Positions 28,179 to 44,140 of a stretch of 64,000 nucleotides of DNA are shown one piece after another. Made by a program: the position numbers and the translations under genes. Origin of the DNA: Thalassobaculaceae bacterium (GTDB lineage: Bacteria; Pseudomonadota; Alphaproteobacteria; Thalassobaculales; Thalassobaculaceae); the NCBI GenBank assembly GCA_029212785.1, contig JARGOG010000002.1, positions 100,644 to 164,643 of the forward strand. The letters are read 5' to 3'. Position 1 is the stretch's first letter; every line of letters starts with the position of its first letter. The notes under the pieces are model-generated. The model had not been told where the DNA came from, did not search any database, and saw only the letters and a program-made list of their open reading frames with translations.

Positions 28179-28311
28179 CTCCAAGACCGACGGCTTAGTG
28201 GTCGCCCTTACTTGTGCGGGGTAATCGCGGACCTAGACTGACTCCTGTTGATGGTGGACGCCTGCCGCCCTCCAGCGACTCTGTTCGGGCTGATGATTGA
28301 GGAGTGCAGGC

Positions 28312-31300
28312 ATGGGCGCGACGAGCAACCGTTACCGCATCGGTTTCGATATCGGCGGGACCTTCACCGATTTCGTGCTGCTCGACGAGCAGGACCACCA
28401 GCTTCACCTGCACAAATGCCTGACCACGCCGCACGACCCGTCGATCGGTGCGATGCAGGGCATGGGCGATCTGCTGGCCGCCGCCGGGCTCGACCTCTCG
28501 GCGGTCGGTCACGTGGTGCATGGGACGACGCTGGCGACCAACGCGCTGATCGAGCGCAAGGGTGCCACCCTTGGGTTCCTGACCACCAAGGGCTTCCGCG
28601 ACATCCTCGAGATGGGCACGGAGCAGCGCTACGACATCCACGACCTGTTCCTGACCTATCCCGATCCGCTGGCGCCGCGCAGTCGCCGGCTGGAGATCGA
28701 CGAGCGGATCGACCGCGACGGCAAGGTGGTCACGCCGCTCGACCTGGACGCGGTCCGGGTGTCGGTCCGTCACCTGGTCGAGGCCGGGATCGGCGCGCTC
28801 GCCGTCTGTTTCCTGCACGCCTATGCCAATCCGGTCCATGAGCGCGCCGTGCGCGACATGGTCCGCGCCGAGTTCCCGGACCTGTCGGTGTCGATCTCCA
28901 GCGACGTGCACCCGCAGATCAAGGAATACGAGCGCAGCTCCACCACCGCCGCCAACGCCTATGTGCAGCCGCTGATGGCGGCCTATGTGCGCAAGCTCGA
29001 CACGGCGCTGCGCGACCAGGGCTTCACCGGCCGGTTCCACATGATCCAGTCCTCCGGCGGCCTGACCGCGCCGGAGACGGCGGGCGAGCTGCCGATCCGG
29101 TTCCTTGAATCCGGTCCGGCCGGCGGCGCCCAGGCGACCGGCATGGTCGGCCGCAAGATCGGCCAGCCCGACGTGCTCTCCTTCGATATGGGCGGCACCA
29201 CGGCCAAGGCGGCGCTGATCCAGAACGGCGAGCCGGATATCGCGCCGATGCTGGAGGCCGCCCGCGTCCACCGCTTCAAGAAGGGCAGCGGCCTGCCGGT
29301 CTTCGCCCCGGTCATCGACATGATCGAGATCGGTGCCGGTGGTGGGTCCATCGCCCGGGTCGACGATCTCGGCCTGCTCAAGGTTGGTCCGGACAGCGCC
29401 GGCGCCGATCCTGGCCCGGCCTGCTACGGCCAGGGCGGGACCCAGCCGACGGTGACCGACGCCAATCTGCTGCTGGGATATCTCGATCCGGGATACTTCC
29501 TTGGCGGGCGCATGAGCTTGGACGTGGCGGCGTCCGAGGCCGCGATGAATACGGTGGCGGGCCGGCTCGGCCTGTCGGCGATCGAGGCGGCCTGGGGCAT
29601 CTATGACCTGGTCAGCGAGAACATGGCCGGGGCCGCCCGCGTCCATATCGTCGAGAAGGGCCGCGATCCGCGTGCCTATGCCATGGTCGCCATGGGCGGG
29701 GCGGGGCCGCTGCACGCCGCCCGGGTCGCGCGCAAGCTCGGCATCCGCGAGGTGGTGGTGCCGGCGGCCTCCGGTGCCGCCTCCGCGCTTGGGTTCCTCG
29801 GCGCGCCGGTCAGCTATGAACTTGCCCGCTCCTTCCCCATGCGGGTCGCCGATCCGGATTTCGCCACCGTCGACGCCATCGTGTCGGAGTTGGAAGCCGA
29901 GGGTCGCGCCCGGCTCGCCGAAGCCGGTGTCGAGACCGGCGTGGTCGTCCAGCGCCGGGCCGATCTGCGCCTGCGCGGACAGATGCACGAGTTGTCGGTG
30001 GCGATGCCGGCCGAGGCGCTGACGGCGGAGAATTTGCCGACGATGGTCGCGGCGTTCACCGCCGAGTACCAGAAGCGCTACACCCACCTGTACGACGATG
30101 CAGAGATCGAGGTGCTGAACTGGCGCGTCGTCTGCACCGCGACCGCACCGGAACTGTCGAGCCAACTCGCTGGCGGCGATGCCGGGGCGACCGCGCTCAA
30201 GGGCCACCGCACTGCCTGGGTGCCGGAACGCGCAGCCGTTGCCGAGGTGCCGGTCTACGACCGTTACGCGCTGAAGCCGGGCGAGACGGTGGAGGGGCCG
30301 GCGATCATCGAGGAGCGCGAGGCGACGACCATCGTGCCGGATGCCTGCACCGTCTCCATCGACACGCATTTCAACCTGCGCCTGGCGCTCGCCGATGTCA
30401 CCGCCGACCGTGTTCTGGTCGGCGCCGACACCGCCCTCGACGACGCCATCGCGCGGATCGAGAGCGACCCGGTCGGGCTTGAGATCATGTGGAGTCGGCT
30501 GATCAACGTCGCCGAGGAATGCTGGCACACGGTGATCCGCACGGCGTTCTCGCTGATCATCGGCGAGGCCCAGGACTTCGCCTGCGAGATCCTGGATGCC
30601 GACGGCAAGCAGATCGTCCACTCGCCGCGCGCCATGCCGGTGTTCAACCTGACCCTGCCCATCGCCGTGAACGCCATGATCGAGCGGTTCCCGCCGGAGA
30701 CGCTGGAGCCGGGCGACGTGCTGATCACGAACGATCCCTGGCTCTGCGCCGGGCACCTGTTCGACATCGCCGTCCCGGTGTTCCGCGCCGGCCGGGTCGT
30801 CTCCTTCGTCGGCGTGGTCGGTCATGTGTCGGATATCGGCGGTACCAAGGACAGCCTGAACGCCCGTGAGATCTTCGACGAGGGCTTCCAGATCCCGCCG
30901 ATGAAGCTGTTCCGCGCCGGAAAGCCGAACGATGATCTGCTGGAGCTGCTGCGCGAGAACGTGCGCCGTCCGGACCAGGTGCTGGGCGACCTGCATGCGC
31001 TCGTCGCCTCCGGCATGACCGGGGCCGAGCGTATCGGCGAGTTTATGGAAGAATACGGCATGCACGACCTGAAGGCGCTGGCCGCCGTCGTACAGCGCCG
31101 GGCCGAGACCGCCATGCGTGACGCCATCCGATCGGTGCCCGACGGCATCTACGAGCATGTGGTTCATGGCGACGGCATCGACCAGGCAATGCGCTACCCG
31201 ATCCAGGTCTCGATCCAGGGCGATCAGGTGGAGGTCAGCTTCGACGGCGCGCCGGATCAGATGAACCGAGGCGGCAGCAACTGCACGCTTACCTACACCA

Positions 31301-32184
31301 AGGCGCACGCCACCTACCCGCTGAAATGCATCTTCTCGCCGGAGGTGCCTGGCAACGCCGGCTGCTACCGGCCGATGGCGGTGGACGCGCCCAAGGGCTC
31401 GATCCTGAACTGCGACCGGCCGCTCTCGGTGAACATGCGCACCCGCACCGGCTGGTACGTCGCCCCGAACATCTTCGGTGCCCTGGCCGATGCGGCACCG
31501 GACCGGGTGCAGGCCTTCACCGGCCTGCCGTCGAGCGCGCTGTTCTATGGCGTCGGCCCGGACGGCATCGTCTACAGCGACCACCTGTTCCAGGGCGGCG
31601 GCCAGGGGGCGTCGACCCATGGTGACGGCAAGTCGGCCCTGCTCTATCCGACCAGTGCGGCCAACACCTCGGTCGAGCTGTTCGAGACCCGCGTGCCGGC
31701 CCTGGTGCTGGAGAAGGCGCTGATGGTCGACAGCGGCGGTGCCGGGCGCAAGCGCGGTGGTCTCGGCCAGGTGATCTCCTCGCGCAAGCTCGACGATGAC
31801 GGCCGGGCCTGCCAGGTCGGCATCTACCCGAACGGCGTGCTGGCCCAGGTCGACGGGCTGTTCGGCGGCAAGGCGGGCGCGCCGTCCGCCGGCCTCGTCG
31901 GCACGTTCGGCGAGACGCCGCGGAATGTCGGCGTCGGTGCGCTGTCCAGCCTGATGACCACCGGGGAATATGCCGAACTTCGGATCTCCGGCGGTTCCGG
32001 CTTCGGCGACCCGCTCACCCGCAGCTTCGAGGAGGTCCAGGCCGATCTCGACGAGGGCTACATCACGCCCGCCGGCGCCGAGCGTGACTATGGTTGTGTG
32101 GTCGGGTCGGACGGCCGCATCGACCGGGCGGCGAGCGAGCGCCTGCGCAAGGGCGAGGCGCGCCTGACCGAGCCGGCCGTGTAG
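28312..32184 (+). CDS. Hydantoinase A / hydantoinase B (5-oxoprolinase-like) fused protein
   Basis: RIGFDIGGTFTDFVLLDE; STTAANAYVQPLM; SFDMGGTTAKAALI (HyuA); MWSRLINVAEECWHTVIRTAFS and NDPWLCAGHLFDIAV, MVDSGGAGRKRGGLGQ (HyuB). Confidence 0.93.
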   Translation: MGATSNRYRIGFDIGGTFTDFVLLDEQDHQLHLHKCLTTPHDPSIGAMQGMGDLLAAAGLDLSAVGHVVHGTTLATNALIERKGATLGFLTTKGFRDILEMGTEQRYDIHDLFLTYPDPLAPRSRRLEIDERIDRDGKVVTPLDLDAVRVSVRHLVEAGIGALAVCFLHAYANPVHERAVRDMVRAEFPDLSVSISSDVHPQIKEYERSSTTAANAYVQPLMAAYVRKLDTALRDQGFTGRFHMIQSSGGLTAPETAGELPIRFLESGPAGGAQATGMVGRKIGQPDVLSFDMGGTTAKAALIQNGEPDIAPMLEAARVHRFKKGSGLPVFAPVIDMIEIGAGGGSIARVDDLGLLKVGPDSAGADPGPACYGQGGTQPTVTDANLLLGYLDPGYFLGGRMSLDVAASEAAMNTVAGRLGLSAIEAAWGIYDLVSENMAGAARVHIVEKGRDPRAYAMVAMGGAGPLHAARVARKLGIREVVVPAASGAASALGFLGAPVSYELARSFPMRVADPDFATVDAIVSELEAEGRARLAEAGVETGVVVQRRADLRLRGQMHELSVAMPAEALTAENLPTMVAAFTAEYQKRYTHLYDDAEIEVLNWRVVCTATAPELSSQLAGGDAGATALKGHRTAWVPERAAVAEVPVYDRYALKPGETVEGPAIIEEREATTIVPDACTVSIDTHFNLRLALADVTADRVLVGADTALDDAIARIESDPVGLEIMWSRLINVAEECWHTVIRTAFSLIIGEAQDFACEILDADGKQIVHSPRAMPVFNLTLPIAVNAMIERFPPETLEPGDVLITNDPWLCAGHLFDIAVPVFRAGRVVSFVGVVGHVSDIGGTKDSLNAREIFDEGFQIPPMKLFRAGKPNDDLLELLRENVRRPDQVLGDLHALVASGMTGAERIGEFMEEYGMHDLKALAAVVQRRAETAMRDAIRSVPDGIYEHVVHGDGIDQAMRYPIQVSIQGDQVEVSFDGAPDQMNRGGSNCTLTYTKAHATYPLKCIFSPEVPGNAGCYRPMAVDAPKGSILNCDRPLSVNMRTRTGWYVAPNIFGALADAAPDRVQAFTGLPSSALFYGVGPDGIVYSDHLFQGGGQGASTHGDGKSALLYPTSAANTSVELFETRVPALVLEKALMVDSGGAGRKRGGLGQVISSRKLDDDGRACQVGIYPNGVLAQVDGLFGGKAGAPSAGLVGTFGETPRNVGVGALSSLMTTGEYAELRISGGSGFGDPLTRSFEEVQADLDEGYITPAGAERDYGCVVGSDGRIDRAASERLRKGEARLTEPAV

Positions 32185-32292: not shown

Positions 32293-33603
32293 TCAGGCCG
32301 GGGCCGGGGGGTCGCCCGCCAGCCCGGCGATCGCCGCCGCCATCGTGCGCGTGCCCGCCATGAAATCGCCGATCTCCATGGCTTCGTACGGGTTGTGGCT
32401 ACCATTCTCGTTGCGCACCAGGATCATGGCGGCCGGAATGCCGATGCCGGCGAAGACGGCGGTGTCGTGACCCACGGTGGCGAATTCCAGCGGCGCCATC
32501 CCCAGAACCTTGGCGGCCCCGGTCAGCGCACCGCGCACGTCGGGATCGAGCGGCGTGGGGCGGGAGCCGACGCGGCCGCCGATCTCGAAACGCACGTCGC
32601 GGCGCGCGGCGATCTCGGCCGCCAGATCGGCGGTCAGCGTGGCCGACCCCTCCAGGAACGCGTCGGTGGTGCCGCCGAAATTCAGGGTGAAGTCCATGCG
32701 TCCGGGCACCTTGGTCATGGCATGCTCGGCACTGTCGGTGAACAGCTTGCCGACGGTGAACACGGTGTCGGGCACGCCGGCGGCCTCCTGTTCGATCCAC
32801 CAGGCTTCCAGGCGGGAGATCAGCTCGGCGGTGGCGAGTGCGGTGTCCTGACGGAAATCCCGCGGGCAGGCGGCGGAGTGGTCGTATCGACCAAAGCACC
32901 GGGCATCGGGGAAGCGGGTGTTGCCGCGGATCGCGGTCGGGATCGCGACCGGCTGTCCGGCGCCGACCAGGATCGGCCCCTGCTCGATATGCAGCTCCAG
33001 GAAGGCCCTGGTGTTGCTGGCGTCGATCCACGGCTTGGCGGCGCGCAGGGCGTCTACGTCGACGCCGCAGCCGGCGATGCACTCCGCCAGGGTCTGACCG
33101 GTATCGAAGCGCCGCAGCCGGTCGAGATCGCCGTCGGGCAGGGTGCCGCAGGCCAGCTTGCTGCCGAGATAGGCGGTGGCGAACCACACGCTTTCCTCGC
33201 CATGCATGGCGATCGCGGTGACGTCGCAGGGCGGTGTCCAGCCGAGGTCGCGATAGGCGGCGAGCGTGGTCAGCGCGGCGACCACGCCGGCATGGCCGTC
33301 GAAATTGCCGCCGAGCGGCACGCTGTCCACATGGGAGCCGGTGAGGATCTGCGGTGCGCGGCGGTCTGCCCCCGGCAACGTGGCCAGCAGGTTGCCGGCG
33401 GGATCCCAGCGGGTCTCGAGTCCGAGGTCCAGGGCCGCCGATTCAACCTGGCGCGCGACCGCCATGTCGAGATCGCTCCAGGCCGGGCGGGTGACGCCTT
33501 CCACATCGCGCGAGGCCTCCCGTGCGGCGTCGAACAGGTCGGATGCGAAGCCGGTACGGGCATCGACGGCGCGGCCGATAGCCTGTGGGTCGGGAGAGGG
33601 CAT
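32293..33603 (-). CDS. M20-type Zn-dependent amidohydrolase (N-carbamoyl-L-amino acid hydrolase / allantoate amidohydrolase-like)
   Basis: TLPGADRRAPQILTGSHVDSVPLGGNFDGHAGVVAAL; FLELHIEQGPIL; SAEHAMTKVPGRMDFTLNF. Confidence 0.91.
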   Translation of the reverse strand: MPSPDPQAIGRAVDARTGFASDLFDAAREASRDVEGVTRPAWSDLDMAVARQVESAALDLGLETRWDPAGNLLATLPGADRRAPQILTGSHVDSVPLGGNFDGHAGVVAALTTLAAYRDLGWTPPCDVTAIAMHGEESVWFATAYLGSKLACGTLPDGDLDRLRRFDTGQTLAECIAGCGVDVDALRAAKPWIDASNTRAFLELHIEQGPILVGAGQPVAIPTAIRGNTRFPDARCFGRYDHSAACPRDFRQDTALATAELISRLEAWWIEQEAAGVPDTVFTVGKLFTDSAEHAMTKVPGRMDFTLNFGGTTDAFLEGSATLTADLAAEIAARRDVRFEIGGRVGSRPTPLDPDVRGALTGAAKVLGMAPLEFATVGHDTAVFAGIGIPAAMILVRNENGSHNPYEAMEIGDFMAGTRTMAAAIAGLAGDPPAPA

Positions 33604-33756: not shown

Positions 33757-34431
33757 TCAGTCCGCCAGCTCCAACGCGGTGCGCACTGCACTCGACACCG
33801 CAAGGATCGCCGGCGCGCCGAGGACGTCGCGAATGACCGCCTTGGTCTCGCGGGTGTAGCTGATGCAGTCGAGGACCAGCAGCTCCGGCGCGTGGTCCTT
33901 CAGCGTCTCGGCAGCGGCGCGGATCTCGTCCGGTGTCGCGTTCGGCGACAGGGCGACGACCTGGGCGTCGTAGCCGGCCTCGCTCCAGCGCTTGCGGCTC
34001 TTCGCGCATTGCGCCTGCAGCGGGGTGAACACGCCGAGCCGACCCTCCGGCAGGCAGCCGCGCACCATGGCGTTCAGCGTGCGCGACGGGAACAGCACCT
34101 TGTACTTGCCGATCCAGTCCGGGAACTCGCCGGTGCACATCACCATGGTGACGTCGTAGCCGGCCGCGGCCAGCTCCTGAAGCTGCTTGGTGCCGTGGGC
34201 GACCACCGCCTTTTTGCTCAGCGTCACCCCGTCGCCGTTCGGCAGGCGGGTGAACAGCGTGTCGGCATCGTCGATCGGGGTGAGGGTGTCGATCTCGGCC
34301 CGGCTCAGCCCGTCGAGGCAGCCGCGCAGGTCCAGATCCACCGGTCCGCCGGCCAGCGCGCGCAGCTCGCGCTCCACCTCGGGGCGGGGGCTCTGTCCGA
34401 CGACCAGGGCGCCGATGCGGGGATTGGCCAT
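33757..34431 (-). CDS. AroM family protein (Asp/Glu racemase-superfamily-like)
   Basis: IGALVVGQSPRPEVERELRALAG...LDGLSRAEIDTLTP...MVMCTGEFP...LLVLDCISYTRETK. Confidence 0.85.
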   Translation of the reverse strand: MANPRIGALVVGQSPRPEVERELRALAGGPVDLDLRGCLDGLSRAEIDTLTPIDDADTLFTRLPNGDGVTLSKKAVVAHGTKQLQELAAAGYDVTMVMCTGEFPDWIGKYKVLFPSRTLNAMVRGCLPEGRLGVFTPLQAQCAKSRKRWSEAGYDAQVVALSPNATPDEIRAAAETLKDHAPELLVLDCISYTRETKAVIRDVLGAPAILAVSSAVRTALELAD

Positions 34432-34445
34432 ATCCGTTCCTTTCC

Positions 34446-35984
34446 TCAGGCTGCGGCGATGTCGCCGACCACTTTCACTCGGGCGCGCACGGCGTTGCCC
34501 GGCAGGTAGGCGAGCGGGAGGTCTTCCATGTCGACGACCTTGACCGAGGCCGGATCGGCGCCGGCCGCCAGTGCCTTTGCGCGGGCCATGGCCTCCGCCT
34601 GCTTCAGCAGGGCGTCGCGGTCCATGTCGCGGAACACGTGGTCGACCTCGCCGCTGACCTGGGCGATGGCGGCGCCGACCGCGTTGGCGACGGCGTAATG
34701 CTCGACCCGGACCACCTCGGAGATGCCGTCCATGCGGTCCGGCGACAGGAACGCGCCGCCGCCGACGGCCAGCAGCGGCACCGCCGCGGCGTCCGTCTTC
34801 ATCCGGTCGACGGTCTCGGCGAGGCGGCGATGGACGACCGCCATCACCTCCGTCACCAGATCCCCGGAGAGATTGGCCACCCGCGAGCGGTCGCCGATCT
34901 CGACCAGCCCGGCCGCCGCGGCGACGTCGCTCAGGGTCAGCGTGTCGCCGCCGAACACCCGCGCCTCCCGGGTCAGCCGGTAGCCGACGCTGAGCGGTCC
35001 GACGGAGAGCGGATCGGGATCGACGATGGTGCCGCCGCCGATGCCGATGGAGACCACGTCGGGCATGCGGAACAGGGTGCGCACGCCGCCGACCTCGACC
35101 ACGTTGTTGGCCTCGCGGGGGAAGCCGGCGCGCAGGCAGCCGATATCGCTGGTGGTCCCGCCGATATCGAGCACCATGGCGTCCTCGATGCCGGACAGGA
35201 AGGCGGCCCCGCGCATGCTGTTGGTCGGACCGGAGGCGAAGCCGTAGACCGGCTGCTCGCGGGCCACGTCGGCGCTGGCGACAGTGCCGTCGTTCTGGGT
35301 GATGAACAGCGGGGCGGCGATGCCGCTCTCCGAAATCGCCTGCTCGAAGGCCTGCACCGTCTCCTCCGCCAGGTCCTGCAGGCTGGCGTTCAGAATGGTG
35401 ACATTCTCGCGCTCCAGCAGGCCGATGCGCCCGAGCGTGCTGGACGTGGTGACCCGCAGCTCCGGATATTCGGACCGCAGGATCTCCGAGGCCCGGTCCT
35501 CGAACTCGCCGGTGAGCGGCGAGAATACCGAGGTCACCGCGGCGGAGCGCACGCCGTCGGCGCGCATCTTTCGCGCCGCCGCGGCGATCGCCGTCTCGTC
35601 CATCGGCACGATCGGACGGCCGTCATATTCGTGGCCGCCGGCGACCATATAGCGGCCGCCATCGACCAGCTCGGCGAGGTCCTGTGGCCAGTCGACCATC
35701 GGCGGCAGGCTGGCGCAGCTCGGCAGGCAGATGCGCAGCGCCGCCGCCCGGTTCAGCCGCCGGCGCTGGACCACGGCGTTGACGAAATGGGTGGTGCCGA
35801 TCATCACCGCGCCGGCCCCGGTGATCGCTTCCCCCACCGCCGCCGCCAGATCCTTCAGCGCGGTGCGCACGCCCGAGGTCACGTCGTCGGTGGTGGCGGT
35901 CTTCACCGCGCCCAGGATGGTGCTGCCGTCGACCAGGACGGCGTCGGTGTTGGTGCCGCCGACATCGATGCCGATGCGTCTCAT
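34446..35984 (-). CDS. Hydantoinase/oxoprolinase family protein (stand-alone HyuA-like)
   Basis: MRRIGIDVGGTNTDAVLVDGSTILGAVKTATT; AMVLDIGGTTSDIGCLRAGFPREANNVVEVGGVRTLFRMPDVVSIGIGGGTIV. Confidence 0.9.
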   Translation of the reverse strand: MRRIGIDVGGTNTDAVLVDGSTILGAVKTATTDDVTSGVRTALKDLAAAVGEAITGAGAVMIGTTHFVNAVVQRRRLNRAAALRICLPSCASLPPMVDWPQDLAELVDGGRYMVAGGHEYDGRPIVPMDETAIAAAARKMRADGVRSAAVTSVFSPLTGEFEDRASEILRSEYPELRVTTSSTLGRIGLLERENVTILNASLQDLAEETVQAFEQAISESGIAAPLFITQNDGTVASADVAREQPVYGFASGPTNSMRGAAFLSGIEDAMVLDIGGTTSDIGCLRAGFPREANNVVEVGGVRTLFRMPDVVSIGIGGGTIVDPDPLSVGPLSVGYRLTREARVFGGDTLTLSDVAAAAGLVEIGDRSRVANLSGDLVTEVMAVVHRRLAETVDRMKTDAAAVPLLAVGGGAFLSPDRMDGISEVVRVEHYAVANAVGAAIAQVSGEVDHVFRDMDRDALLKQAEAMARAKALAAGADPASVKVVDMEDLPLAYLPGNAVRARVKVVGDIAAA

Positions 35985-37114
35985 GCGCCGTCTCCGTCGA
36001 ATACCGAGTGGAAATCGAGATCGAAGCCGAAGGCCCGAGGGCCGACCGCCTCCAGGCCGGCGGGCGTCTTGAAGATATCGGGGCCCGGCAGGGCGAGGAC
36101 GGAGACCCGTTGGCCGTAGCGCAGCACGTCGGTGCCGATGCCGTCGCCGCTGACACTGTCGACCACGCAGATCAGGTCCGGGGTCATCACCACCGGGTCC
36201 CCGTTGCGGTAGCCGACCGAGAATTCGTTCTGGAAATGCACGGTGAAGCGGCTGCCCGCGTCACCGTCGAGCCCGTCGATCTCGGCGCGGCCGCGCAGGA
36301 AACCCTCGGTGGCGCGGCGTTCGACATCGACCACCTTGCCGGTGAAGATCCGCTTGCCGGCGCAGGCCTCGACGATGGCGGTGACCGGATCGGCGTGGCG
36401 GGCGCGGGCGTCGAACACCGCGCGGCCGAGGTCGATCGCCTTGGTCGTGGTGTACAGGATGCCGTGATCCTTGACCTCGCGGCCGGTGCGCGGCGCCTTG
36501 CAGGTGGCGGCGATCGAGCCGACCTCGGTGCAGGCCTTGCGGCTGATCCGCTCCATCCACTTCCAGCTCTCCGCCCGCGGGATGATCACCTCGTTGTCGC
36601 GGATGTCGGCGAGCGTGAACGGGTAGCACTGCAGCCCGGCGACGGCGACGCTGGTCATCTGCGCCTCGGGATAGGCTCGACCCATGGTGTCGGCATCGAC
36701 CACAGGATAGCCGGTCAGGGCGCCGACCATCATCGGGTGCACCCCGTTGCCGCCGCCGATCTCCAGCGACATGACGGCGTCGAACGGACGGCCTAGATAG
36801 CGCTCCATGGTGCGCACCGGCTTGACCGCGAAATCGGCATCGGCCAGCCGCTCCTGGCCGACCAGCGGGGCGCCCATGTTCGACAGCACCGCGACCTGGG
36901 CGTCGTCGGCCAGCGACAGCGGGTCAATCAGGGTGACGCTGTGGCCCTTGCGGTACAGCTCGCGCATGTTGAGCAGCTTGTGATACGGGTCGCCGCCACC
37001 GCCGGTGCCGAGGATCCAGGCGCCGAGCGCCAGCGCCTCGATATCGTCGAGGGTGAGCGTGCGCGGCGGGCGGGGCGACGCCGGGTCGCGGGCGGGATGG
37101 ACGGAGGCGGACAC
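35981..37114 (-). CDS. DUF917 domain protein
   Basis: LTLDDIEALALGAWILGTGGGGDPYHKLLNMRELYRKGHSVTLIDPLSLADDAQVAVLSNMGAPLVGQERL; GTG start at 37114; 4-bp overlap with the HyuA-like gene. Confidence 0.87.
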   Translation of the reverse strand: MSASVHPARDPASPRPPRTLTLDDIEALALGAWILGTGGGGDPYHKLLNMRELYRKGHSVTLIDPLSLADDAQVAVLSNMGAPLVGQERLADADFAVKPVRTMERYLGRPFDAVMSLEIGGGNGVHPMMVGALTGYPVVDADTMGRAYPEAQMTSVAVAGLQCYPFTLADIRDNEVIIPRAESWKWMERISRKACTEVGSIAATCKAPRTGREVKDHGILYTTTKAIDLGRAVFDARARHADPVTAIVEACAGKRIFTGKVVDVERRATEGFLRGRAEIDGLDGDAGSRFTVHFQNEFSVGYRNGDPVVMTPDLICVVDSVSGDGIGTDVLRYGQRVSVLALPGPDIFKTPAGLEAVGPRAFGFDLDFHSVFDGDGA

Positions 37115-37195
37115 GGATTTCTCCCCACGGTTCCGCCGACAGGGAAACGCGGCCAGCGGGTGGCGCAGTCTAGGTGCCGTCATTCCGCCGGCCCA

Positions 37196-37231
37196 ATACG
37201 AGATCGCCCGTATCGTCTTCGCAGTTGCGAA
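37196..37231. promoter_or_regulatory. Two candidate operator dyads in the DUF917 / aroM-luxR divergent region: ATACG-N8-CGTAT (37196-37213) and TTCGCA-GT-TGCGAA (37218-37231)
   Basis: Read directly; both inverted repeats perfect, 195-bp intergenic space. Confidence 0.6.
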
Positions 37232-37309
37232 ATTGGCTGTCTTGATCGCCGGGCGGGTGCGGCCTACCATTTTTCCAATGCCATGGAATCCGTGAGCCGG
37301 AGAGGTGCC

Positions 37310-38269
37310 ATGGGCCAGGACCTCAGGATCAGACCGACCCTCGCGAGGACGCGGACCCCGTCCGCGCTCGCCCGTGTCGCCATTGTCACTCTCGGACAGA
37401 CCCCGCGCAGCGATGTCGTCCCCGAGCTTTGCGCGCTGGCCGAACGACCGATGACGGCGCTCGAGTTCGGTGTGCTGGACGGAGTGGATCCGGAGACCCT
37501 GTCGCGGATCGCCCCCGGCCCCGGTGAACCGGCCCTACTGAGTCGGATGCGAGACGGTAGTGACATCGTCATGTCGATCGACTGGACCAGCGACCGCATG
37601 CAGGAGATCTATTCGGAGATCGCCGCGCTCGACGTCGACCTCGTCGTGCTGATGTCGTCGCTGCTCGGCTCGGTTCCCGCTCCGGCGCGCACGACGATCT
37701 TCAGCGACCGGGTGGTGGCGCGCACGATCGAGACCTTCGCCGATGCGGGCTTGCGGGTCGGCATCTTGCTCTCGCTCGACAGTCAGGGCGACATGGTGGT
37801 GCGCGACCGTACCCGCCGCCCGGAGATGGTCCGTGCCGCGATCGCCCGGCCCGGCGACCGGTCGGCCCTGGCGGCGGCGATCGACGAGCTGGCCGACTGC
37901 GACGTGCTGGTGCTGCATTCGGTGACCTACAGCGAGGACGAGCGCCGCGACGCTTCCCGCCGCTCGGGCAAGCCGGTGGTGATGGCGCGTCAACTCGTGG
38001 CCAGCGCCGTGCGCGAGGCGTTGGATCGGCTGGGTTCGTGCGCCAAAGATCGCGACGGCGCCCTCAGCGACCGACTGCGGACGCTCAGTGTGCGCGAGCG
38101 CGAAATCATGTTCCTGGTGGCCGAGGGGCTGGCGAACAAGGAGATCGCCTTCCGCTTGGGCATCAGCTTCCGCACGGTCGAGATTCACCGGGCGCGGATG
38201 ATGAGCAAGATGGATTTCCGCACCATGACCGACCTGGTGCGCACCGTGGACAGCCTGTCCGAATTCTGA
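37310..38269 (+). CDS. AroM-like domain fused to C-terminal LuxR/FixJ-type HTH; putative one-component regulator
   Basis: VAIVTLGQTPRSDVVPELCALAERP...VLVLHSVTYSEDERRDASRRSGKPVVMARQLVASAVREAL (AroM-like), then LSVREREIMFLVAEGLANKEIAFRLGISFRTVEIHRARMMSKMDFRTMTDLVRTVDSL (LuxR HTH). Confidence 0.88.
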   Translation: MGQDLRIRPTLARTRTPSALARVAIVTLGQTPRSDVVPELCALAERPMTALEFGVLDGVDPETLSRIAPGPGEPALLSRMRDGSDIVMSIDWTSDRMQEIYSEIAALDVDLVVLMSSLLGSVPAPARTTIFSDRVVARTIETFADAGLRVGILLSLDSQGDMVVRDRTRRPEMVRAAIARPGDRSALAAAIDELADCDVLVLHSVTYSEDERRDASRRSGKPVVMARQLVASAVREALDRLGSCAKDRDGALSDRLRTLSVREREIMFLVAEGLANKEIAFRLGISFRTVEIHRARMMSKMDFRTMTDLVRTVDSLSEF

Positions 38270-38492
38270 CGGCCGACCATGCCGGGATCCGGCCGTTTCA
38301 GAGTACGGGCGCGCCCGCTACGTGGCGGCGCGTATAGGACTCGGTGCGTGGTTTGGGCTTACACTTTTGCGGTGCAATGCGACGCAGAGCGCAGCGCCGA
38401 AGGCCGTCGGACAAGATTGGGAGCTTGCCGGCGGCGGGGCCGTAGGGACCACCGCGTCCGCACGGCGTTGACGGAGAACCAGGGGGTTTCAC

Positions 38493-40070
38493 ATGAACCA
38501 ATTCATCAAGATGGGCCTTGCCGCCGGCCTGATGGCGGCGTCTTTCGCGACCGCCGTGACTTCGGCGAGCGCCTTCGAACGCCGTGACGGCGAGAAGATC
38601 CTGGTCTCGGCACAACGCCAGGCCGCACCGACCTTCGACCCGAGCATCAAGTACGATGCCTCGACCCGCACGATGCAGCAGGCGATGTACGACGGGCTGC
38701 TGAAATACGTCGACACCCCGCCGAAGGTGGTGCCATGGCTGGCGGAGAGTTTTGACGTCAGCGATGACGGGCTGACCTACACCTTCCACCTGGTCGACGG
38801 TGCCAAGTTCCATAACGGCGACCCGGTCGATGCCGAGGCGGTGCGCTGGTCCTTCGAGCGCACGCTGACCCTGGGCAAGGGTCCGGCCTGGATGCTCGAC
38901 TCCTTCCTGAAGGCCGAGAACGTCAAGGCCGTCGACCCGAAGACCGTGACCTTCACCCTCGACCGGCCGTTCGCGCCGTTCACGTCCTTCCTGCCCTGGT
39001 GGTTCATCCTGAACCCCAAGCAGGTGATGGAGCACGAGGTCGACGGTGACCTTGGTCAGGCCTGGCTGGTGGAGAACGAGGCCGGCTCCGGCCCGTACAA
39101 GCTGAAGCGGGTGGAGCAGGGAACGCTGTACGAGCTCGAGCGGTTCGACGAGTACTGGAAGGGCTTCCAGGGCGATCTCGGCGGCATCATCTACAAGCTG
39201 ATCCGCGAATCCTCGGCCCAGCGCGCGGCCCTGCAGCGCGGCGAGGCGGATATCGTCACCGGCCTGAGCCCGGACGAGTTCGACCAGATCTCCAAGATCA
39301 AGGGCGTCGTCACCTCGACCCAACCGGCACTGACCGCCTTCGGCATCAAGTTCAACACTCAGGGCGAGAAGACCGGAGATGTGAACCTGCGCAAGGCCGT
39401 GGCCTACGCCTTCGACTACGAGGGCCTGATCAAGATCTACAACGGTCGCGCGGTGCTGCAGACCAGCCCGTTCACCGATGCCATCCAGGGCAAGATCGAG
39501 GTCCCTGACATGCCGCGCCAGGACATCGCCAAGGCGAAGGAATACCTGGCGAAGTCCAAGTTCCCGGACGGCGGCATCGAGCTCGAATATGTCTACGTGC
39601 AGGGGCTCGAGGAAGAGCGCCTGATGGGCCTGATCCTGATCGACAGCCTGCAGGAGCTGAACATCACGGTGAAGATGGTGCCGCTGACCTGGGCCAATAT
39701 GGTGGCCCGCGGCTCCAAGGTCGAAACCTCGCCGGACATGATCGCGATCTTCGCCACGCCGGTCTCGACCGATCCGGACGCGGTGGCGATCCAGTATCAC
39801 CCGTCCAGCCAGGGCGCCTATTATGGCGTTCACTACCTCAACGACGAGAAGCTGAACGCGATGATCGAGGAGGCCCGCTTCACCACCGAGTGGGAGAAGC
39901 GCGCGCCGATCTATGTCGAAATCCAGAAGCGGATCGTCGATCTGCAACCGGAGATCTTCGGCATGATGCGCGAGCGCCGGATCGCCTATCGCGACTGGCT
40001 GAAGGGCTACGAATACAGCCCGGTGCGGATGACCGAGGAAGTCGACTTCTACCCGCTCTATATCGAGTAG
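38493..40070 (+). CDS. Peptide-type ABC transporter substrate-binding protein (SBP family 5)
   Basis: MNQFIKMGLAAGLMAASFATAVTSASAFE signal peptide; YTFHLVDGAKFHNGDPVDAEAVRWSFER; GSGPYKLKRVEQG. Confidence 0.93.
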   Translation: MNQFIKMGLAAGLMAASFATAVTSASAFERRDGEKILVSAQRQAAPTFDPSIKYDASTRTMQQAMYDGLLKYVDTPPKVVPWLAESFDVSDDGLTYTFHLVDGAKFHNGDPVDAEAVRWSFERTLTLGKGPAWMLDSFLKAENVKAVDPKTVTFTLDRPFAPFTSFLPWWFILNPKQVMEHEVDGDLGQAWLVENEAGSGPYKLKRVEQGTLYELERFDEYWKGFQGDLGGIIYKLIRESSAQRAALQRGEADIVTGLSPDEFDQISKIKGVVTSTQPALTAFGIKFNTQGEKTGDVNLRKAVAYAFDYEGLIKIYNGRAVLQTSPFTDAIQGKIEVPDMPRQDIAKAKEYLAKSKFPDGGIELEYVYVQGLEEERLMGLILIDSLQELNITVKMVPLTWANMVARGSKVETSPDMIAIFATPVSTDPDAVAIQYHPSSQGAYYGVHYLNDEKLNAMIEEARFTTEWEKRAPIYVEIQKRIVDLQPEIFGMMRERRIAYRDWLKGYEYSPVRMTEEVDFYPLYIE

Positions 40071-40228: not shown

Positions 40229-41239
40229 ATGCTTCGTTTCACCCTCAAGCGCGCCGTCTTGATGGTGTTCATGCTGCTCGGCCTGCTGGCGATCACCTTC
40301 ACCATCTCGCATATCGCGCCAAGCGACCCCGCCGCCCTTGCCGCCGGCCCCGACGCCAATGTGGAGATGATCGAGCGCTATCGGGTCGAGTACGGGCTCG
40401 ACCGCCCAGTCTACGAACAGTTCGTGGTCTATCTCGGACGGCTGCTGACCGGCAACTGGGGCAAGTCGATCCACACCACCCGCATGGTTTGGGACGACCT
40501 ACTGGCCTATTTCCCCAACACGGTCGAACTGGTGCTGTTCTCGATCCTGATCGCGATCGCGATCGGCGTGCCGCTGGGGGTGATCGCGGCGGTGTACCAG
40601 AATCGCCCGGTCGACCACATGATCCGCATCCTGACGGTGACCGGCGTAGCGATGCCGATGTTCTGGCTCGGACTCATGGCCCAGCTGTATTTCGCCCTGT
40701 ATCTGGAATGGTTCCCGCTCGGCGGCCGGATCGAGATGATGACCGACCCGCCGCGGGACATCACCCATCTGCTGATGGTCGACGCGCTGTTGCAGGGGCA
40801 GTTCTCCACATTCGTCGAGGCGCTGCACCACATCGTGCTGCCGGCGGTGGCGCTGTGTTTCCCGGCGTTGGCCTCGATCATCCGGGTGAACCGGGCGGAG
40901 ATGCTGGAGACCCTGAACCAGGACTATATCGTCAACGCCCGTGCCCAGGGCCTTTCGACCTTCCGCATCGTCGCCGTCTACGCGCTGAAGAACGCGATGC
41001 TGCCGACCATGGCGATCATCGGCCTGCGGTTCGGCTGGATGCTGGGCGGGACGGTGCTGGTCGAGACGGTGTTCGACTGGCCCGGCATCGGCCTCTACGC
41101 GGTGCAGGCGGCGATCAGTTCCGATTTCGAGCCGATCATGGGGGCGACCATCGTGCTCGGCTTCTTCTTCATGATGACCAACTTCCTGATCGATATCATT
41201 TACGGCGTCCTCGATCCGAGGGTGCGGGACCAAGTGTAG
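40229..41239 (+). CDS. dppB: Peptide-type ABC transporter permease (DppB-like)
   Basis: MLRFTLKRAVLMVFMLLGLLAITFTISHIAPSDPA; ETVFDWPGIGLYAVQA. Confidence 0.93.
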   Translation: MLRFTLKRAVLMVFMLLGLLAITFTISHIAPSDPAALAAGPDANVEMIERYRVEYGLDRPVYEQFVVYLGRLLTGNWGKSIHTTRMVWDDLLAYFPNTVELVLFSILIAIAIGVPLGVIAAVYQNRPVDHMIRILTVTGVAMPMFWLGLMAQLYFALYLEWFPLGGRIEMMTDPPRDITHLLMVDALLQGQFSTFVEALHHIVLPAVALCFPALASIIRVNRAEMLETLNQDYIVNARAQGLSTFRIVAVYALKNAMLPTMAIIGLRFGWMLGGTVLVETVFDWPGIGLYAVQAAISSDFEPIMGATIVLGFFFMMTNFLIDIIYGVLDPRVRDQV

Positions 41240-41242
41240 GCG

Positions 41243-42157
41243 ATGGCTGAGAGCATCCGATCCGATACCGCAGCCCTGCCCGGGTTCGCCGAGCGCCATG
41301 CCGGCACCATCCGCATGGCCCGACTCTACGTGCGGACCTTCGCGCGCAACGGTTCGGCCATGCTGGGGTTGGCGGTGGTGGTGCTGTTCCTGGTGACCGC
41401 CGCCATTGGCCCCTGGATCGTGCCGTTCCCCGAGGATGCCACCGGCGCCATCCATCTCGACCAGAAGCTGCAGCCGCCGGACGCGACCCACTGGTTCGGC
41501 ACCGATGAGGTGGGTAACGACGTCTTCACCCGCGTGGTGCTCGGCACCCGGGTTACCCTGCAGATTGCCTGCATCGTGACCGGCGTGGCCATGCTGATCG
41601 GCGTGCCGCTCGGCATGATCGCCGGCTTTGTCGGCGGTCGGGTGCAGGAGGTGATCATGCGGATCACCGACGTCTTCCTGTCGGTACCCGGACTGATCCT
41701 GGCGATCGCCATCGTCGGCGCGCTCGGCCCCGGCATCGTCAATGCCATGCTGGCGCTGTCCCTGGTCTGGTGGCCGGGGTATGTGCGCCTGGTCCAGGCC
41801 AAGACCCTGTCCCTGAAGAACGAGATCTACGTGCAGGCGGCGCGCTCCATGGGGGCGAGCAAGCTGCGGATCGTGTTCGTGCATATCCTGCCGAACTGCA
41901 CTTCGCCGATCATCGTCAAGGCGTCGATGGACATGGGCATGGCGATCCTCGGGGCCGCGTCGCTCGGTTTCCTCGGTCTCGGCGCGCAGCCGCCGTTTCC
42001 GGAATGGGGGGCGATGATCTCGATCGCGCGCACCTACCTGCCGGACTGGTGGTGGTACTCGTTCTTCCCCGGCGTGGCGATCTCGATCACCGTGCTCGGC
42101 TTCAACCTGCTGGGGGACGGGCTGCGCGACATTCTCGACCCGAAGCACCGCGAATGA
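41243..42157 (+). CDS. dppC: Peptide-type ABC transporter permease (DppC-like)
   Basis: HWFGTDEVGNDVFTRVVLGTRVTLQ; ASLGFLGLGAQPPFPEWGAMIS. Confidence 0.93.
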   Translation: MAESIRSDTAALPGFAERHAGTIRMARLYVRTFARNGSAMLGLAVVVLFLVTAAIGPWIVPFPEDATGAIHLDQKLQPPDATHWFGTDEVGNDVFTRVVLGTRVTLQIACIVTGVAMLIGVPLGMIAGFVGGRVQEVIMRITDVFLSVPGLILAIAIVGALGPGIVNAMLALSLVWWPGYVRLVQAKTLSLKNEIYVQAARSMGASKLRIVFVHILPNCTSPIIVKASMDMGMAILGAASLGFLGLGAQPPFPEWGAMISIARTYLPDWWWYSFFPGVAISITVLGFNLLGDGLRDILDPKHRE

Positions 42158-43182
42158 ACGGCCCTCCAATGAATTCAGTTGATCCGCTGCTGTCCGTGCG
42201 CGATTTCCGTCTGGAGTTCGACACTTTCGACGGCGTCTACCAGGCGATCGACGGTGTCAGCTTCGACGTGGCGCCGGGTGAGTCGATCGGCATCGTCGGC
42301 GAGACCGGCTGCGGCAAGTCGGTGACGGCGCGCTCGATCATGGGCCTGCTGCCAAGCCCGCCGGCGCGGGTGCGCGGCGGCCAGATCCTGTTCGACGGCG
42401 AGGACATGCTGACGGTCGGTGAGGAGCGGCTGCGCCAGATCCGCGGCAACGACATCGCCATGATCTTCCAGGACCCGATGACCTATCTGAACCCGGTCTT
42501 CACGATCGGGACCCAACTGGTCGACGTCATCCTGGCGCAGCAGCGTGCCAAACCCCGGGCCGAGCGGATGACCCGCCGCGATGCCCGCGACCATGCGGTC
42601 GAGATGCTGCGCAAGGTCAACCTGCCGAACCCGGAGCGCCAGCTCGAGAACTATCCCTATCAGCTCTCCGGCGGCATGCGGCAGCGGGTGCTGATCGCCA
42701 TGGCCCTGTCCGGTCGCCCGAAGCTGCTGATCGCCGATGAGCCAACCACCGCGCTGGACGTGACGATCCAGGCGCAGATACTCGACCTGATCGACGAACT
42801 GCGCGCCGATTTCGGCCTGTCGGTGGTGATGATCACCCACGATCTCGGGGTCGTCGCCTCGGTCTGTGACCGGGTGGTGGTGATGTATGCGGGTCAGATC
42901 GTCGAGGATGCCTCCGTCGCCCGGCTGTTCGATCACCCGGCCCATCCCTATACCCGCGGGCTGCTGGCCTCTGTACCGCATCCGGGACGCCCAGCGACCA
43001 GCCTGTCGGGCATTCCGGGCTCGCTCCCCAATCTGCTCGATCCGCCGAGCGGGTGCCGGTTCCATGGCCGCTGTGCGCTGGCCGGCGACGACTGCCTGCA
43101 GCCGCCGCCGAACACCGTGCTGGCCGAACGTCACAAGGTCGCCTGCTGGCGGGCCATGGAGGGTGCCGGTGCTGTCGATTGA
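42154..43182 (+). CDS. dppD: Oligopeptide ABC transporter ATP-binding protein (DppD-like)
   Basis: [61 protein letters not shown] at 42154 overlaps the upstream stop. Confidence 0.93.
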
Positions 43183-44140
43183 GGATCTGAAGGTCCATTT
43201 CGAGATCGGAAAGCGTGGCCGGGACCGTAAGGTTCTGAAGGCGGTCGATGGCGTGACGCTGACCCTGAAGAAGGGCGAGGCGTACGGTCTTGTCGGCGAG
43301 TCAGGCTCCGGCAAGTCGACCATCGGCAAGGCCGCCCTGCATCTGGTGCCGATCACCGGTGGTCGACTGGTGATCGACCACGAGGACCTGACACGGATCG
43401 ACCAGCGCAGCGAGAAGAAGCTGCGGCGCAAGGCGCAGATGGTGTTCCAGGATCCGCATTCCGCGCTCAACCCGCGCATGACGATCCTGCGCAGCGTGTC
43501 CGAACCGCTGGTGCTGCACACGCCCCTGCGCGGCGCCGCCTTGCAGGCGCGGGTGGCCGAACTCCTGGAAACCGTCGGTCTGTCCAGCCAGTTCCTCTAC
43601 CGGTATCCCCATGAGCTCTCCGGCGGACAGAAGCAGCGGGTGTGCATCGCCCGCGCCATCGCCCTGAACCCGGACCTGCTGGTCCTGGACGAGCCGACCT
43701 CGGCCCTGGACGTGTCGGTGCAGTCGCAGATTCTGGAGTTCCTGAAGGCGCTCCAGGCCGAGCTCGGGCTGACCTATCTGTTCATCTCCCACAACCTCGC
43801 GGTGGTCCGGTATCTCTGTCGCCGGGTGGCAGTGATGTATCTCGGCGTGATCGTGGAGGAGGGGGAGACCGAGGCGGTCTTCAACAACCCGCGCCACCCC
43901 TATACCCAGGCACTGCTCAAGGCCGTGCCCTATCCCCAGGCGGTGCAGCCGGACAAGGGGCCGCCGCTTGGCGGCGACATCCCGAGCCCGGTCGACCTGC
44001 CGCCGGGCTGCCGGTTCCAGACCCGCTGCCCGGCGCGGGTCGAGGGGCTTTGCGACAAGGTCGCTCCGCCGGAGATCCAGGATGCCGGCGGGTTGGTGCG
44101 TTGCCACCTGTTCGCGGAGGCTGGGCGGGCAAGCGGATAG
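43169..44140 (+). CDS. dppF: Oligopeptide ABC transporter ATP-binding protein (DppF-like), GTG start
   Basis: [58 protein letters not shown]. Confidence 0.92.
   Translation: MLSIEDLKVHFEIGKRGRDRKVLKAVDGVTLTLKKGEAYGLVGESGSGKSTIGKAALHLVPITGGRLVIDHEDLTRIDQRSEKKLRRKAQMVFQDPHSALNPRMTILRSVSEPLVLHTPLRGAALQARVAELLETVGLSSQFLYRYPHELSGGQKQRVCIARAIALNPDLLVLDEPTSALDVSVQSQILEFLKALQAELGLTYLFISHNLAVVRYLCRRVAVMYLGVIVEEGETEAVFNNPRHPYTQALLKAVPYPQAVQPDKGPPLGGDIPSPVDLPPGCRFQTRCPARVEGLCDKVAPPEIQDAGGLVRCHLFAEAGRASG

Follow-up and report, generated by a model that had tools for sequence, protein, structure and literature searches.

In its passages on cyclodipeptide-oxidase clusters, PMC11055893 reports AroM together with DUF917, hydantoin racemases and oligopeptide transporters, and calls AroM uncharacterised and racemase-like; those passages make no mention of an HTH fusion of AroM. 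The protein considered here is such a fusion. It shares with stand-alone AroM (PF07302) the predicted fold, the signature (GQxPR, LDG, Asp, Gln, Tyr) and the DUF917/HyuA neighbourhood, but it lacks both cysteines and carries in addition a C-terminal HTH. Its predicted fold is also that of hydantoin racemase, allantoin racemase (AllR), arylmalonate decarboxylase and maleate isomerase; from the hydantoin/allantoin racemase group it differs in the absence of the presumed catalytic cysteines and in the added DNA-binding domain.

Domains and predicted fold of the fusion protein

The fusion gene and a stand-alone AroM gene lie in the same window, i.e. the whole 64-kb stretch of DNA that was analysed:

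37310..38269 (+): AroM-LuxR fusion, putative regulator, 319 aa (Pfam domains, orthologues, 37-member clade)
37376..38017 (+): AroM (Asp/Glu/hydantoin racemase-fold) domain, putative pseudo-enzyme, aa 23-236 (PF07302 3.4e-37; AlphaFold/Foldseek racemase fold)
38081..38245 (+): LuxR/GerE-type (FixJ-like) HTH, aa 258-312 (PF00196 4.5e-17; PDB sequence matches FixJ, EL222, NarL)
33757..34431 (-): stand-alone AroM with both Cys (PF07302 6.3e-59; racemase fold)

The preliminary description had reported a 319-aa ORF that ends in a LuxR HTH and is co-linear with the stand-alone AroM. Both observations hold: the ORF is intact, Pfam found PF07302 as well as GerE in it, and alignment of the two AroM sequences agrees. 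The match to PF07302 (128.5 bits, cut-off 23.8) covers positions 1-217 of the 219 in the profile and is therefore full-length, while the HTH scored 61.9 bits against GerE (cut-off 23.5) and is closest to those of FixJ, EL222 and NarL in NCBIfam and PDB sequence searches.

The AlphaFold model of the fusion is of moderate confidence (pLDDT 82.4; 91.3 for stand-alone AroM). Its top Foldseek matches in the PDB are hydantoin racemase, arylmalonate decarboxylase and allantoin racemase; both models match 2eq5, 2vlb and 5lfd with E about 1e-6, and glutamate racemase and maleate isomerase are also among the fold matches. TM-scores of the fusion model against racemases are about 0.4-0.65, and FixJ, LiaR and RcsB are matched through its HTH. 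The N-terminal domain is thus predicted to have a racemase-like, two-lobed alpha/beta fold. The structural check proposed earlier gave the Asp/Glu-racemase fold that had been anticipated: the N-terminal region is AroM, with no receiver domain detected by Pfam or AlphaFold/Foldseek and no PAS or autoinducer-binding domain by Pfam or Foldseek, so that an N-terminus of any of these three kinds is ruled out. PADLOC gave two weak matches to CARF3 (E about 2e-5; aa 234-300 and 257-303), which might suggest a defence-related CARF regulator; they were disregarded because they are limited to the HTH and its immediate flank.

Occurrence of the fusion and replacement of the cysteines

Four further members of the family have orthologues of the fusion with 67-82% identity, and another family has one with 40% identity; a scan of genome contigs added the fusions of Magnetovibrio and two of Microvirga. 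Searches with PF07302, which covered 395 genomes of the class, 399 genomes of the phylum, several families and plasmids, yielded 110 distinct AroM domains, 37 with a C-terminal HTH-bearing extension and 73 stand-alone. All 37 fusions found are alphaproteobacterial; the phylum sample of 399 genomes contained none outside Alphaproteobacteria, and the relative in Gemmatimonadetes is a stand-alone AroM. In a maximum-likelihood tree, a branch supported at 100/93 and present in 200/200 bootstrap trees separates the 37 fusions from the remaining AroM domains. The suggested search for the AroM plus HTH_LUXR architecture with neighbourhood analysis therefore returned 37 distinct fusions and a conserved neighbourhood. 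Such conservation across the class, seen in the orthologues and in the 37 fusion domains, rules out a chance juxtaposition or an annotation artefact. In plasmid records, the fusion is annotated as 'AroM family protein' or 'hypothetical protein'.

Two codons of the fusion correspond to the cysteines of stand-alone AroM, as read from the alignment columns:

37655..37657 (+): Ser116, aligned with Cys99 of stand-alone AroM
37919..37921 (+): Ser204, aligned with Cys189 of stand-alone AroM

Cys99 lies in VMCTG and Cys189 in LDCISY; in the AroM model, the former comes right after strand E94-98 and the latter after strand E184-187, so that both would sit at strand ends, as expected for racemase cysteines. 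The preliminary description had proposed that the fusion lacks the pair. Both cysteines are indeed absent, although its 'Met/Ser' at the first position was off by one, the residue being Ser. An alignment census found no Cys at position 1 (0/37; Ser 27, Met 8, Thr 2) or at position 2 (0/37; Ser 35, Ala 2) of the fusions, and the catalytic pair is missing, rather than retained, in 37/37. Stand-alone AroM proteins have both cysteines in 66/73 cases and the second in 73/73, and the seven without the first are enterobacterial-type.

As a separate observation, those enterobacterial-type proteins (L051-L054 and L056-L058, 7/9 AroM of family group f202) have Ser at the first Cys position and also differ in the GQxPR region; they, too, may not be two-Cys racemases.

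The remaining signature residues of the fusion (GQxPR, LDG, Asp, Gln, Tyr) are kept as in stand-alone AroM. Gly29, Pro32, Arg33, Gly54, Leu56 and Asp57 are invariant in 37/37 fusions, Asp110 and Gln159 occur in 35/37, and position 207 is Tyr or Phe in all. On the basis of this residue census of fusions and stand-alones, the signature has been kept while the presumed acid/base cysteines were removed, which is the pattern expected of a sensor, with the domain presumably binding a ligand. By sequence, the fusion may be regarded as a pseudo-enzyme branch of the AroM family, and it is very likely that its AroM domain has no residual racemase activity. The loss of the cysteines tracks the HTH fusion in every member sampled, and this would make it a clean case of an enzyme family giving rise to a sensor.

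The same residues bear on the idea of a bifunctional trigger enzyme, whose AroM domain would still catalyse, e.g. via Ser or another base, in addition to regulating. The retention of GQxPR, LDG, Asp110, Gln159 and Tyr207 would be compatible with it, as would the Ser found at position 1 in E. coli-type AroM too. Nevertheless, both cysteines are lost in 37/37 fusions, the Met (8) at position 1 and the Ala (2) at position 2 cannot do acid/base chemistry, and in many genomes the cluster also contains an AroM whose cysteines are intact, so that we regard a trigger enzyme as distinctly improbable.

Gene neighbourhood and candidate operators

In addition to the stand-alone AroM gene, the fusion gene is surrounded by the following genes:

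32293..33603 (-): M20 hydantoinase/carbamoylase-family amidase (PF01546 2.5e-16; TIGR01879 212.7 bits, cut-off 204)
34446..35984 (-): HyuA-type hydantoinase/oxoprolinase subunit (PF05378/PF01968)
35981..37114 (-): DUF917/S-Me-THD-like protein, start GTG 37114 (PF06032/PF20906; conservation; RBS)
38493..40070 (+): oligopeptide-type ABC substrate-binding protein (SBP_bac_5), first gene of a putative operon under operator 2 (PF00496 4.2e-77)
40229..44140 (+): remainder of the ABC transporter (permeases 40229-41239 and 41243-42157; ATPases about 42154-43182 and 43160-44140)

It should be noted that the longest DUF917 ORF starts at 37270. Because the promoter described below is predicted inside this ORF, downstream of the 37270 start, the start was moved to GTG 37114, which is most likely the true one; conservation, which begins at residue 72 of the longest ORF, agrees with this choice, and the RBS GGGGAGAA precedes the GTG. 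Elsewhere in the window, a 1141-aa ORF (28195-31620, -) runs antisense to the 1295-aa HyuA-HyuB (oxoprolinase-type) gene (28297-32184, +).

In almost every cluster region examined, among them those of Microvirga, Neorhizobium, Shinella and Ketogulonicigenium, the fusion gene and DUF917-HyuA are arranged divergently. An oligopeptide-type ABC transporter, an OPT transporter or an M20 hydrolase is found nearby, often with a stand-alone AroM. The presence of a stand-alone AroM in many fusion clusters might suggest control by protein contact, in which no small molecule is involved and a partner, e.g. stand-alone AroM or DUF917/HyuA, controls the domain. Yet no stand-alone AroM was found in the stretches examined of five fusion clusters (L080, L081, L135, L136 and L138), and the fusion therefore seems independent of it; moreover, conservation of the signature residues follows the pattern of a small-molecule site. 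Control by contact appears very improbable, and a sensor of a small molecule is preferred.

Some genomes have an AroM-LuxR paralogue at either end of one cluster (L137, 6899-7789 and 14343-15275; L139, 5087-5977 and 12530-13420); one paralogue lies next to DUF917-HyuA and the other next to DUF1177/AroM, and both are preceded by a box. These pairs are possibly two sensors for two pathway compounds.

Two inverted repeats with adjoining promoter elements flank the fusion gene:

37197..37212 (no strand): candidate operator 1, TACGAGATCGCCCGTA, a 16-bp 7-2-7 inverted repeat in the divergent DUF917 operon promoter
37191-37196 (-): weak -35 element TTGGGC of the DUF917 promoter, adjoining operator 1
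37167..37172 (-): -10 element TAGACT of the DUF917 promoter, 24 nt beyond operator 1 (TA spacing across non-redundant boxes)
38319..38334 (no strand): candidate operator 2, TACGTGGCGGCGCGTA, upstream of the ABC-transporter operon
38360..38365 (+): -10 element TACACT of the ABC-operon promoter, 25 nt beyond operator 2 (promoter spacing)

Alignment of the DUF917/fusion intergenic regions of five close genomes brought out a block CCCAATACG-N8-CGTA, so that operator 1 is kept in the window and in the four orthologue genomes; on the DUF917 strand, the block is followed by TTGGG, an 18-nt spacing and TANNNT. The fragment 37115-37309, which had been named for EMSA in the preliminary description, contains this repeat. 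Distant clades have other arms (TACGTG..CACGTA, TAAGGG/TAGGGG..CCCCTA, TACGTA..TACCTA) in the same TA-N12-TA layout. The clades thus differ in box sequence yet keep the promoter spacing: in 17/17 non-redundant boxes, picked by symmetry alone, the TA of the -10 element is 23 or 24 nt past the box. When distant regions were scored against the exact arms of the window's clade, ATACG..CGTAT, there was no significance in several clades; the clades have the box layout in common rather than the sequence of the arms.

In 24/25 fusion/DUF917 intergenic regions, an inverted repeat of TA-N12-TA layout is followed by TA at 23/24 nt on the DUF917 side, where shuffles expect 0.29. This count overstates the number of independent observations because the regions are related by descent, and the layout had been defined on part of the regions that were then counted. 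Only 2/25 of these regions have such a site toward the fusion gene. The independent control is provided by fusion-less clusters, whose DUF917 promoters have the site in 0/16 cases (13 clusters). The comparison points to a conserved cognate DNA site in the linked promoters that is present only with the regulator. By the same layout, box 1 is absent in G271 and Magnetovibrio, both of which have box 2.

Where the boxes of a clade are TAAGGG/TAGGGG, the recognition helix of the fusion tends to read IS-P-[RK]-TVEIHR, and where they are TACG, it is mostly IS-[FH]-RTVEIHR; exceptions exist, and this is a possible specificity determinant.

Operator 2 is the only other perfect TACG-N8-CGTA in the window and is kept in 4/4 close orthologue genomes. 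An equivalent box 2, with the -10 at 23-24 nt, occurs in Magnetovibrio, Microvirga, Neorhizobium, Shinella, Ketogulonicigenium, G051 and G271, and distant copies precede ABC, AroM, OPT or M20 genes. That TACG-N8-CGTA is merely frequent can be ruled out: it is found at 11 places in the 4.9-Mb genome, two of which flank the fusion gene, and only these two have TANNNT at 24-25 nt and are promoter-linked. If a single mismatch is tolerated, the window holds 7 copies of the pattern where chance predicts 8.8, i.e. no excess, and for this reason only perfect, promoter-linked sites are claimed. In the genome of the window, the backward-read control of the same pattern is 7-8 times as frequent (84 per strand, against 11), so that this genome is poor in the dyad.

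The position of the boxes would also suit a ligand-relieved repressor, in which the ligand-free protein on both boxes blocks RNA polymerase until the pathway ligand releases it: each box abuts the -35 region of its promoter, and bound protein could occlude polymerase. We consider such a repressor rather unlikely. The box-to--10 spacing is fixed at 23-25 nt across clades, as expected for activator contact with polymerase, whereas the site of a repressor would be free to drift; the promoters have poor -35 hexamers, and FixJ/NarL/LuxR HTH proteins are often activators. Relative to the predicted start, the operator centre lies at about -43 to -45, i.e. in class II activator geometry, from which the ligand-bound protein most likely activates the import and breakdown genes. 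Altogether, the fusion is probably an activator rather than a repressor.

Proposed mechanism and known regulators

An AroM-type member of the racemase superfamily would have turned into a ligand-binding sensor after losing the two presumed acid/base cysteines but not the remaining signature, the ligand sitting in the former racemase pocket. The candidate site emerges from comparative genomics; the C-terminal FixJ/LuxR-type HTH would bind as a dimer to this 16-bp inverted repeat, which is TACG-N8-CGTA in the clade of the window. In the promoter of the divergent DUF917-hydantoinase-AroM operon, operator 1 would act from just upstream of a poor -35 element, with 23-24 nt between it and the -10; operator 2 would act from the corresponding position in front of the operon for the oligopeptide-type ABC transporter. 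The ligand-bound regulator thus most likely switches on the uptake and degradation of a compound that is a cyclic amide, hydantoin-like or derived from peptides, presumably handled by the neighbouring AroM, hydantoinase and M20 enzymes.

We infer activation, a ligand of this kind and the loss of catalysis with differing confidence. That the fusion is a dedicated local regulator using the candidate operator site can be held with high confidence, and there is good reason to think that it is a one-component, ligand-responsive activator of the DUF917-hydantoinase-AroM operon and of the oligopeptide-type ABC transporter. It seems fairly likely that it senses a substrate or intermediate of the linked cyclic-amide pathway. 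Operator variants (TACG..CGTA, TAAGGG..CCCTTA, TACGTA..TACCTA) occur at constant promoter spacing, and it is reasonably probable that these proteins form a new family of one-component regulators with a Cys-less AroM sensor, which arose once, co-diversified with its operator and controls the uptake and hydrolysis of cyclic amides or cyclic dipeptides.

The two candidate operators and the putative regulon offer a handle on the substrate of the uncharacterised AroM/DUF917/hydantoinase pathway. A reporter on the operator promoters would allow direct ligand screening, and could reveal what AroM and DUF917 act on.

The preliminary description had considered AroM plus HTH an enzyme-fold one-component regulator. 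This idea is supported, none of the three contrary findings named with it (a receiver, PAS or autoinducer N-terminus; both catalytic cysteines; an already characterised family) having been made. In particular, no characterised regulator of the AroM-HTH kind was found in the PDB sequence search, in NCBIfam or in the literature searched. LuxR-type one-component regulators and enzyme-derived sensors are already known; neither the literature searched nor family libraries contained an AroM pseudo-racemase sensor that has an operator family of its own.

With LuxR/FixJ/NarL-type regulators the fusion has the HTH in common, but its sensor appears to be a pseudo-racemase instead of a receiver, PAS or autoinducer domain. 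The TAC...GTA dyad of 7-2-7 style and its activator-type placement resemble NarL- and LuxR-type sites. PrpR, the regulator of propionate catabolism, is a sigma-54-dependent, NtrC-type regulator, and its sensor structure (2pju) matches the fusion model weakly in Foldseek (TMq 0.24-0.28). Both proteins would have a metabolite-sensing alpha/beta domain on a transcription regulator, but the sensor of PrpR belongs to another family.
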